A DNA stretch of 54,643 nt from an actinobacterium SCGC AAA278-I18 (GTDB lineage Bacteria; Actinomycetota; Actinomycetes; Nanopelagicales; Nanopelagicaceae), in the NCBI GenBank assembly GCA_000378865.1, contig KB900442.1, forward strand, positions 12,239-66,881, given 5' to 3'. The translations under genes were made by a program, and so were the position numbers. Positions 4,812 through 36,859 of the stretch are shown in pieces. Position 1 is the first letter of the stretch. Each line of letters starts with the position of its first letter. The notes beneath the pieces were generated by a model. It ran no database searches. It was given only the letters and a program-made list of their open reading frames with translations, and was not told the DNA's origin.

Positions 4812-4952
4812 TGTGGGTATTAAAGAAAACGCAGGTCAGACAGAGGAAAACCTCCCTTTAAAGGGGTGGGAAAGGTGTGGAGAAGTTGTTTAAAACCTTC
4901 AAAATCCAAGATATAAACACCCTTATCCACCCTTATCCACAACTTATCCCCA
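4812..4952. promoter_or_regulatory. DnaA-box cluster A between dnaA and dnaN (oriC candidate)
   Basis: The 312 bp gap between dnaA and dnaN (4693-5004) holds no gene. It contains matches to the DnaA box TTATNCACA: TTATCCACC 4923-4931, TTATCCACA 4933-4941 (perfect), TTATCCCCA 4944-4952, a reverse TGTGGAGAA 4876-4884 and a weaker reverse TGTGGGTAT 4812-4820. The first three are packed about 10 bp apart on one strand, suited to cooperative DnaA binding. AT-rich tracts flank them. In actinobacteria the dnaA-dnaN gap is the usual oriC; this reading is inference from box density. Confidence 0.8.
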
Positions 4953-6457: not shown

Positions 6458-6593
6458 TTACCCACAAAGATATCCACAGGCTGTGGTCTAAACCTGTCCT
6501 TTAAACTTCAATTTCTACCCTTTGAGGGGGAATCTCTGTGGATAGAGGGCGAACATAGGGGCTAGCACCTGAGAATGCAAGTGGTTATCCACA
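6458..6593. promoter_or_regulatory. DnaA-box cluster B between dnaA and rpmH
   Basis: The roughly 295 bp between the dnaA and rpmH starts holds TTACCCACA 6458-6466, ATATCCACA 6470-6478, reverse TGTGGATAG 6537-6545 and a perfect TTATCCACA 6585-6593. The first two lie just upstream of the dnaA start, placed for autoregulation of dnaA. The others point to the rpmH side. No gene is visible in this gap. Together with cluster A the boxes flank dnaA. Confidence 0.72.
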
Positions 6594-26057: not shown

Positions 26058-26507
26058 ATGAAATTAATCCTTACCCGTGAAGTTCCTGGCTTAGGTGGCG
26101 CAGGAGATGTTGTAAATGTTAAAGATGGTTATGGCCGTAACTTTTTACTATCAAGAGGCAATGCTATTTTGTGGACCAAAGGTGGTGAGGGCCAGATTGA
26201 AGGAATTAAGCGCGCTCGCACAACCCGTGAAATCCGCGACTTAGATCATGCCAAAGAGATTAAAACAAAGCTAGAGAAAGCCAATGTAATTGTTAAGGTC
26301 AAGATTGGTTCAACCGGCACAATGTTTGGCTCCGTCACAGACAAAGCAATTGTGGCAGCGATTAAAAGTGCGACTAGTGAAACTGTTGATCGCCATAAGA
26401 TCAAGATGGATAAGCACATTAAAAAGGCTGGTAAGTACACCGTAAAGATTGCACTGGAGTCACAAGTAGTAGCTAATGTGCCAATCAGTGTGGTGGCAGA
26501 TAAGTAA
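26058..26507 (+). CDS. rplI: 50S ribosomal protein L9
   Basis: A 149-residue L9 starting MKLILTREVPGLGGAGDVVNVKDGYGRNFLL, typical of the family. ATG 26058 has AAGGAGAT 8 nt upstream; a longer frame from 25953 overlaps rpsR and is rejected. It ends the rpsF operon, followed by the only clear intrinsic terminator in the window. Confidence 0.96.
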   Translation: MKLILTREVPGLGGAGDVVNVKDGYGRNFLLSRGNAILWTKGGEGQIEGIKRARTTREIRDLDHAKEIKTKLEKANVIVKVKIGSTGTMFGSVTDKAIVAAIKSATSETVDRHKIKMDKHIKKAGKYTVKIALESQVVANVPISVVADK

Positions 26508-26517
26508 TTTAACTATT

Positions 26518-26550
26518 TAAAGGCCCTCCAAAAGATTGGGGGGCTTTTTT
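26518..26550 (+). terminator. Intrinsic terminator after rplI
   Basis: A GC-rich hairpin (GGCCCTCC pairing with GGGGGGC around an AAAAGATT loop, one bulge) is followed by six T residues. Confidence 0.85.
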
Positions 26551-26587
26551 ATTGGCTCACCAAATAGTGAGATAAAGAAATAAATCT

Positions 26588-26682
26588 TTCTCCACAGCTC
26601 CTACACTATTTTTACGCTTGATTTGGCTTAATTAAAATACTTATCCACCAATACCAACTATTTACCCACACCCTTATCCACC
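26588..26682. promoter_or_regulatory. DnaA-box cluster C upstream of dnaB
   Basis: The 327 bp between rplI and dnaB carries the rplI terminator and then TTCTCCACA 26588-26596, TTATCCACC 26641-26649, TTACCCACA 26662-26670 and TTATCCACC 26674-26682, all on the plus strand. The variants are the same as those flanking dnaA. Further on are candidate -10 hexamers TAGGCT (26768-26773) and TAGATT (26802-26807). No gene is visible in the gap. Confidence 0.68.
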
Positions 26683-26834
26683 AATTTTATTAGGTACTAC
26701 ACAGGCTTGATCACAGGCTTTTTGTATGGGTTATCCCAGCAGTAATTACCAGATTATCTTTGGTTCCTAGGCTTAAAGTAATTGATTTTAAATACTTTTA
26801 TTAGATTGTCAGTGGCAGATGGGAGAGTAGTTAT

Positions 26835-28235
26835 ATGAGTATCGCAGAGTTCCCAAATAACGCAGGCCGTGCCCGTAATAGCGCTGCTGAGTTTGAACGC
26901 ACACCACCACAAGATGTAATTGCTGAACAATCTGTTTTAGGTGGAATGCTCTTATCAAAAGATGCAATTAGTGATGTAGTTGAAATTTTACGGGAGCGAG
27001 ATTTTTATCGCCCAGCACATGAATTAATTTATGATGCAATTGTTGATCTCTATGGCAGAGGTGAGCCAGCTGATCCAGTAACGGTTTCAGCAGAGCTTAC
27101 AAAGCGTGGTGATTTGGTAAGAGCAGGTGGTGCGCCATATCTGCATACTTTAATCTCATCTGTACCAACCGCCGCTAATGCTGGTTACTATGCAAAGATA
27201 ATTAGAGAGCGCGCCATTATGCGCCGCCTTGTTGAGGCTGGAACAAAGATTGTACAACTTGGTTACACCGATGAGGGTGAGGTTGATGATGCAGTTGATC
27301 AAGCACAAGCTGAGGTCTTTGCGGTAACTGAAAGAAGAGAGGCAGATGATTACATTCAATTATCTCAGTTACTACCAGCAGCACTTGATGAGATAGAAAA
27401 AATATCTGCTGGCATAGTTGGCCAAGGTGTTAAAACTGGATTTAAAGATTTAGATGCGCTAACAAATGGATTTCATCCTGGAAATATGATTGTGCTTGCT
27501 GCTCGTCCTGCAGTTGGTAAATCAACACTTGGCTTAGATATTGCCAGGTATGCATCAATTCATAAAGGTGAGACCTCAGTTATCTTCTCACTAGAAATGA
27601 GCCGCTCTGAGATCACAATGAGAATGCTCTCAGCAGAGGCACGGGTGCCACTTAATAATATTCGCTCCGGTAATTTAAATGAGGAGGAGTGGTCAAGAAT
27701 GGCTCGGCGGATGGGTGAGATCTCACAAGCTCCAATGTTTATTGATGATTCACCAAATCTTTCTCTAATGGAGATTCGTGCAAAATCTCGCCGGCTTAAG
27801 CAGCGCCATAACTTAAAGTTAATTGTGATCGATTATCTACAGCTTATGACTAGCGGTAAGCGAGTAGAAAATCGCCAACAAGAGGTCTCTGAGTTCTCCC
27901 GCCAATTAAAGTTATTAGCTAAAGAATTAAATGTGCCAGTTGTTGCTATCTCTCAGTTAAATCGTTCCCCTGAACAACGCTCTGATAAGAAACCAATGCT
28001 TTCCGACCTTCGTGAGTCTGGTTCGATTGAGCAGGATGCAGATGTGGTTATCTTGTTACACCGTGAAGATTTATATGACTCCCAAAATAGATCAGGTGAG
28101 GCTGATTTAATTGTGGCAAAACACCGAAATGGTCCAACTAGAACAATTACTGTTTCTGCCCAACTTCACTTTGCCCGCTTTACCGATATGGCTGCAACCT
28201 TCTCAACTAGTGAAAACTTTGTTAAGGATAATTAA
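26835..28235 (+). CDS. dnaB: Replicative DNA helicase DnaB
   Basis: Hexameric helicase unwinding the replication fork. It has 466 residues: an N-terminal domain with PPQDVIAEQSVLGGMLLS, a linker and the RecA-like motor with Walker A AARPAVGKST, VIDYLQLM and the DRESGSIEQDADVV region (here LRESGSIEQDADVV). There is no intein, unlike some mycobacterial dnaB genes. The start is ATG at 26835, with GGGAGAG upstream. Its TAA shares bases with the convergent carbonic anhydrase stop. Confidence 0.96.
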   Translation: MSIAEFPNNAGRARNSAAEFERTPPQDVIAEQSVLGGMLLSKDAISDVVEILRERDFYRPAHELIYDAIVDLYGRGEPADPVTVSAELTKRGDLVRAGGAPYLHTLISSVPTAANAGYYAKIIRERAIMRRLVEAGTKIVQLGYTDEGEVDDAVDQAQAEVFAVTERREADDYIQLSQLLPAALDEIEKISAGIVGQGVKTGFKDLDALTNGFHPGNMIVLAARPAVGKSTLGLDIARYASIHKGETSVIFSLEMSRSEITMRMLSAEARVPLNNIRSGNLNEEEWSRMARRMGEISQAPMFIDDSPNLSLMEIRAKSRRLKQRHNLKLIVIDYLQLMTSGKRVENRQQEVSEFSRQLKLLAKELNVPVVAISQLNRSPEQRSDKKPMLSDLRESGSIEQDADVVILLHREDLYDSQNRSGEADLIVAKHRNGPTRTITVSAQLHFARFTDMAATFSTSENFVKDN

Positions 28236-36543: not shown

Positions 36544-36575
36544 TTATCCACAATACTTATCCACGGTGTGGAGAA
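36544..36575. promoter_or_regulatory. DnaA-box cluster D upstream of the Fe-S oxidoreductase
   Basis: Three boxes in 32 bp: a perfect TTATCCACA 36544-36552, TTATCCACG 36557-36565 and reverse TGTGGAGAA 36567-36575. The cluster overlaps the GTG alternative start and the likely -35 region. Confidence 0.7.
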
Positions 36576-36589
36576 TTACAGGTGTGTAA

Positions 36590-36859
36590 TTAGTACCAGC
36601 GGGTGGCGAGTGAGAAGCCAATCCCAATAAAGCCAAAGCCAACCAACATATTCCAAGCACCAATACCTGGGATTGGGTATGAGGTGGAGCTGATGTAGAA
36701 GATTACGATCCAAATTAGGCCAATTAGGAAGTTAGCCACCATAACTGGGGCAAGCCACTTTGGACTCTCAAGCTTTGCATCCTCAGCGGCAAACTGCTCA
36801 ACCTCCGGGGTGCTTTTCTTGGCTTTGCGAACCTTCTCGCGCACTTTTGACTTCGGCAT
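36590..36859 (-). CDS. crgA: Cell division protein CrgA
   Basis: An 89-residue protein with a basic cytoplasmic N-terminus and two transmembrane helices (about 35-55 and 68-85), ending SLATRWY. CrgA helps assemble the actinobacterial divisome and sits next to pabA/trpG and pknB as here. ATG 36859 has TAATCT 6 nt upstream. The gap to the divergent pabA is only 27 bp. Confidence 0.9.
   Translation of the reverse strand: MPKSKVREKVRKAKKSTPEVEQFAAEDAKLESPKWLAPVMVANFLIGLIWIVIFYISSTSYPIPGIGAWNMLVGFGFIGIGFSLATRWY

Follow-up and report, generated by a model that had tools for sequence, protein, structure and literature searches.

The closest described counterpart of the locus analysed here is the DnaA-binding region upstream of the replicative helicase gene dnaB in mycobacteria. 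In Mycobacterium tuberculosis, IDAP-seq placed the strongest DnaA binding at oriC, at rpmH-dnaA, upstream of dnaB (Rv0057 region), at Rv0010c-Rv0011c and at Rv3843c-RVnc0040, and ChIP-seq in M. smegmatis found DnaA at the homologues of the same five loci; mycobacterial binding upstream of dnaB is thus documented both in vitro and in vivo (PMC7738170). Moreover, in M. tuberculosis carrying the DnaA I282T substitution, binding upstream of dnaB is weaker and dnaB is underexpressed (PMC7738170). Caulobacter crescentus, as cited in the same study, has DnaA-dependent dnaB transcription and resembles the present locus in that DnaA is tied to the DNA upstream of dnaB; this is a likeness to a distant phylum, drawn from that citation, and the Caulobacter link is probably either independent or very old. 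The Escherichia coli sites datA, DARS1 and DARS2 each gather a few DnaA boxes at a distance from oriC and depend on IHF (datA, DARS2) or Fis (DARS2) sites or flanking DNA (PMC4585315). Our literature search, which did not extend to older Streptomyces work on box clusters, found no account of DnaA boxes before dnaB across actinobacteria.

We analysed a window of 54,643 nucleotides from the actinobacterium SCGC AAA278-I18 (host G+C, 41%; genomes of the genus, ~1.2 Mb). Taken with the gene order, these values suggest a streamlined actinobacterium of the freshwater type. The gene order at the locus is rpsF, ssb, rpsR, rplI, dnaB, with dnaA and dnaN lying ~20 kb off, a distance already given in the first-pass annotation and consistent with the gene coordinates (Table 1). 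The AT-rich rplI-dnaB gap (26508-26834; 327 bp; 35% G+C) is the longest of the 17 intergenic gaps exceeding 40 bp in the gene list of the window, followed by the dnaA-dnaN (312 bp) and dnaA-rpmH (259 bp) gaps, which bears out its earlier description as unusually long; no Rfam family was found within it. All four same-strand DnaA boxes reported before dnaB were recovered exactly where the first-pass annotation had placed them, every one on the forward strand. The three box variants likewise recur around dnaA, as had been claimed, with TTCTCCACA at 4876 (reverse strand), TTATCCACC at 4923 and TTACCCACA at 6458. As a separate observation, a single reading frame at 6866-7459 matches both rnpA (ribonuclease P protein) and YidD, as though two small genes had fused.

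Table 1. Coordinates of genes and sequence elements in the window
Feature	Position	Strand	Basis and remarks
dnaA	5005-6477	-	Pfam and NCBIfam
rplI, ribosomal protein L9, upstream neighbour of dnaB	26058-26507	+	Pfam PF03948, PF01281; ATG read from sequence
Terminator-like hairpin with T-run, 3' of rplI	26523-26550	+	Read from sequence; shape kept, letters differ in relatives
Conserved element AAATARTGAGAT, just 5' of box 1	26562-26573	+	10/12 positions invariant in 12 genus members
DnaA box 1, TTCTCCACA	26588-26596	+	Strict match; 7/9 positions invariant in genus
Conserved TTTACGCTT motif	26611-26619	+	CGCT invariant in genus; possible -35 of upstream promoter
DnaA box 2, TTATCCACC	26641-26649	+	Strict match; 8/9 positions invariant in genus
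DnaA box 3, TTACCCACA	26662-26670	+	Strict match; 9/9 positions invariant in genus
DnaA box 4, TTATCCACC	26674-26682	+	Strict match; less conserved, 4/9 positions invariant in genus
CACAG half-site pair	26698-26716	+	CACAG and CACA conserved in genus
Conserved block GATTATCTTT..CCTAG	26752-26770	+	11/19 positions invariant in genus
Candidate dnaB promoter, TTGTCAGTG-N8-GAGAGT	26806-26828	+	Ends six bases before ATG; 18/23 positions invariant in genus
dnaB, replicative DNA helicase	26835-28235	+	Pfam PF03796, PF00772; NCBIfam TIGR00665
Three DnaA boxes, 3' side of crgA (crgA 36590-36859, -, Pfam)	36544-36575		TTCTCCACA facing two inverted TTATCCACN

Within the window, 12 of the 15 strict boxes fall at dnaA/oriC, dnaB and crgA, and boxes occur at the counterparts of four of the five mycobacterial DnaA loci (the dnaA-dnaN gap, the dnaA-rpmH gap, dnaB and the crgA side). 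As in mycobacteria (PMC7738170), the dnaB region belongs to an actinobacterium, lies upstream of dnaB and within tens of kilobases of oriC, and is one of a few strong loci alongside oriC, rpmH-dnaA and a crgA-side site. The box cluster occupies non-coding DNA directly upstream of dnaB, and relatives, other actinomycete families among them, have kept it there. The two regions are likened by place rather than by box-by-box alignment, and binding was measured in mycobacteria, whereas here it is predicted from sequence.

The number of boxes in the gap is far above expectation: across 20,000 dinucleotide shuffles, the gap contained 0.05 strict boxes on average and never as many as three. A density no higher than chance, which the first-pass annotation had named as grounds for rejecting its reading, is contradicted by these shuffles. 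Genome-wide, single near-matches to TTATCCACA are at the chance level (259, against 262 for a reversed control), as would be expected if an AT-rich gap merely happened to contain box-like words; the shuffles, together with the conservation and phasing described below, refute that reading, to which we assign practically no probability. With single near-matches at the chance level, clustering rather than box number is the signal, and isolated boxes mean little. The genome-wide count suggested in the first-pass annotation was accordingly uninformative for single matches and discriminating for close pairs, which are restricted to a few loci. Such pairs occur in this genome at five places, against two control places, and these places represent four loci: the dnaA-dnaN gap (oriC), the dnaB gap, the 3' side of crgA and, on another contig, the beginning of a ygjP-like gene.

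Three complete genomes of the genus contain close pairs at 12 places, against none in the control, and, with loci assigned by position plus gene look-ups, they display the same locus set with single losses. In G001 every one of the four loci has its pair, and G014 lacks the crgA pair. G005 has two places near dnaA and, with box 4 lost and a T as the last base of box 2, no dnaB pair under the pattern used. At the ygjP-like metallopeptidase gene (L063:1667-1728; G000:C1:29666-29727), two TTATCCACC boxes overlap the gene start; they hold fixed positions (-18 and +2) in each of the 22 genus members read, a few of which carry last-base variants, and lie ~217-223 kb from oriC in the three complete genomes.

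Conservation of the dnaB cluster extends well beyond the genus. In an alignment of the gap from 12 genus members, 28 of the 36 positions within boxes are invariant, compared with 17 of the 183 positions outside all named elements, the non-box elements in this count having been named after inspection of the alignment. Boxes before dnaB number 48 on the forward strand and none on the reverse strand in the genus (shuffle mean, 2.2), 29 and two in other genera of the family (shuffle mean, 1.4), and 39 and eight in other actinomycete families (shuffle mean, 2.0); enrichment and strand bias are therefore present at the genus, family and class levels. Three genus members (G011, G016 and G018) have each kept just one strict box before dnaB, which weighs against the regulatory reading given below. 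The absence of conservation, which the first-pass annotation had named as fatal to its reading, was thus not encountered.

Spacing between the boxes follows the helical repeat of DNA. In nearly all genus members with these boxes, box 1 and box 2 are 53 bp apart and box 2 and box 3 are 21 bp apart, while other genera have spacings of 11, 12, 22, 32, 33, 43 and 64 bp, again near multiples of a helical turn (10.6 bp); boxes spaced in this way stay on one face of the helix. With each genus represented by a single genome, the vector length R at a period of 10.6 is 0.91 for 21 spacings in the family, and for 20 spacings in other families the best R is 0.81. None of 20,000 random spacing sets was equally phased, either in the family or in other families, and 0 to 1 of 20,000 was as phased with repeated spacings reduced to one each; analytic p-values were set aside, since the approximation behind them breaks down here. 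The genomes share ancestry, and with it the spacings lose part of their independence, so that these figures overstate the case. Still, selection on a single-faced complex would be expected to let spacings change while preserving their phase, as seen here.

The analysis documents the boxes with their clustered, conserved, strand-biased and phased arrangement, along with a promoter-like motif and the pafBC genes; from these, and from the DnaA binding upstream of dnaB shown in mycobacteria, we infer that DnaA binds in this organism, which way it acts, the dnaB promoter and a PafBC input. We consider it likely that the rplI-dnaB gap is the regulatory region of dnaB, in which a phased DnaA complex adjusts dnaB transcription, probably upwards, from a promoter at the ATG that also receives PafBC input. 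DnaA would occupy boxes 1-4 in one direction and on one helix face, forming an ordered complex ~150-250 bp 5' of the dnaB start; this complex would tune dnaB transcription, probably up, with helicase supply tracking the level or activity of DnaA. Transcription would begin from TTGTCAGTG-N8-GAGAGT, at the dnaB ATG or close to it. The element is probably of the type on which PafBC, an activator responding to DNA damage, operates, so that dnaB would receive both replication-initiation and DNA-damage inputs. Across genera, we looked for constant helical phasing of the boxes relative to the promoter motif and saw none, the last box lying 45 to 156 bp away; this variable, unphased distance indicates no fixed contact with RNA polymerase, and we do not propose a rigid one.

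The direction of the effect could be the reverse, with DnaA repressing dnaB: a promoter TTTACG-N16-TAAAAT (26611-26638) would start transcription near box 2, and DnaA on boxes 2-4 would block it, in the manner of dnaA autoregulation. This promoter-like match does lie directly before box 2, and the CGCT in its first hexamer is conserved. However, the generic sigma-70 scan that gave this match was uninformative, its matches being at the chance level (two found against 1.3 expected), the letters of its -10 are not conserved in relatives, and in M. tuberculosis reduced DnaA binding accompanies reduced dnaB expression (PMC7738170), all of which make repression improbable.

The promoter-like element favored here and the further conserved motifs found between rplI and dnaB are additions to the first-pass annotation, which described none of them. 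RecA-NDp promoters, which are activated by PafBC, have the consensus TTGTCRGTG-N8-TAnnnT. The dnaB motif matches this consensus in its first part, its spacing and the A and T of the -10, and differs in the genus at the first T of the -10, where the GGGAGG stretch could instead be a ribosome-binding site. The distance from motif to ATG is fixed in most of the family, even where the GGGAGG stretch is absent, and in other families a similar TGTCRG motif is found 50-105 bases 5' of the chosen dnaB start. Furthermore, the genome encodes tandem WYL proteins constituting a PafB-PafC pair, the first of which matches the PafBC structure 6sj9 (E 6e-32). Within the genus, TTGTCAGTG-N8-nAnnnT also precedes a DUF3263 gene (L111, L110), again six bases from the ATG, and a PD-(D/E)XK nuclease gene (L114, L113); the DUF3263 gene has a weak NCBIfam match to NapA. 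Together with dnaB, these two genes may form a small PafBC regulon in the genus.

In M. tuberculosis, induction of dnaB by mitomycin C is partly PafBC-dependent (PMC8151990). Given the motif geometry, the same motif at other genes, the PafB-PafC pair and this induction, TTGTCAGTG-N8-GAGAGT is probably a RecA-NDp-type dnaB promoter with a weak -10. It shares with the RecA-NDp promoters activated by PafBC (PMC6789036, PMC8223512) the TTGTCAGTG-N8-nAnnnT arrangement, here at the dnaB start, and the accompanying PafB-PafC pair, and departs from them in the first base of the -10. A literature search from which subscription papers were mostly absent found nothing linking PafBC, RecA-NDp and dnaB.

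The remaining conserved elements of the gap are less readily interpreted. The hairpin 3' of rplI, which a simple terminator scan did not list, keeps its shape despite letter changes, and this suggests that dnaB is probably its own transcription unit, set apart from the ribosomal operon. The TGAGAT of the AAATARTGAGAT element persists across most of the family's other genera, and the element is inverted in one (G031); we recognized no known motif in it. The CACAG pair may, as a conjecture, represent weak DnaA sites, and the GATTATCTTT..CCTAG block is a possible second promoter or regulator site. Separately, CGAACATnnGTTCGA-type palindromes resembling actinobacterial LexA boxes precede dnaB in several other families (L038, L045, L055, L061, L062); none was seen before dnaB in this genus.

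A different role for the boxes would be mainly to titrate DnaA, or to act on its nucleotide state near oriC in the manner of datA/DARS, with the position before dnaB incidental. Several good boxes no more than 21 kb from oriC, in a region copied early after initiation, would suit such a site, as would an ordered, phased complex whose geometry relative to the promoter is not fixed; as a few-box cluster away from oriC, the locus also resembles E. coli datA/DARS (PMC4585315). A pure titration site, however, would not need to keep its place before dnaB across families, as this one does. In contrast to datA/DARS, the boxes are unidirectional and stand upstream of a replication gene, and no IHF, Fis or other partner-protein sites were identified (no actinobacterial IHF-like site model was applied); moreover, other clusters exist at oriC and crgA, and our results contain no sign of a DnaA-nucleotide switch. 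We therefore regard this role as rather unlikely, and titration of DnaA may be a by-product of the dnaB boxes. Of the two functions offered in the first-pass annotation, the link between DnaA and dnaB transcription gains from the conserved position, orientation and phase and from mycobacterial binding, whereas the datA/DARS-like function found nothing specific in its favor.

Even less probable, and in our view very much so, is a second origin or helicase-loading site at the cluster. The AT-rich gap, the phased boxes and the adjacent helicase gene would be compatible with one; on the other hand, the dnaA-dnaN gap has boxes of its own, no unwinding element was identified, and the strand-corrected composition step is best placed at 4.5-5.5 kb (dnaA/dnaN) and not at 26.5 kb, although this fit is weak, since not many genes lie to the left and the sign is atypical.

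Beyond dnaB, the crgA-side boxes adjoin a palindrome, AATTACAC..TGTAATT, and the site is recognizable downstream of crgA in nearly all members of the genus and family and in several other actinomycete families. Rv0011c of M. tuberculosis is crgA. The recurrence of this arrangement downstream of crgA in many families suggests that these sites are sequence-level counterparts of the 'cryptic' DnaA site at Rv0010c-Rv0011c in M. tuberculosis (PMC7738170).

DnaA binding before dnaB is already known in mycobacteria and, as cited in PMC7738170, in Caulobacter; what is new here is comparative, namely the phase-locked spacing, the strand bias, the persistence across families and the conserved crgA-side site. 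Little is known in actinobacteria about control by DnaA beyond oriC, and the conserved cluster before dnaB suggests a link between helicase production and the initiator DnaA. A bolder reading, which we hold as speculative and doubtful, is that the dnaB and crgA boxes belong to an ancient group of ordered DnaA complexes in actinobacteria, which would be more than operators, for example nearby switches of DnaA activity (stand-ins for datA/DARS) coupling helicase supply to initiation and, via PafBC, to DNA damage. The comparisons also suggest that the dnaB and crgA DnaA sites of mycobacteria are old features common to tiny, streamlined relatives. The proposed architecture of phase-locked boxes and a PafBC-type promoter is concrete and testable, and with it helicase supply, replication initiation and the DNA-damage response could be studied as one circuit.
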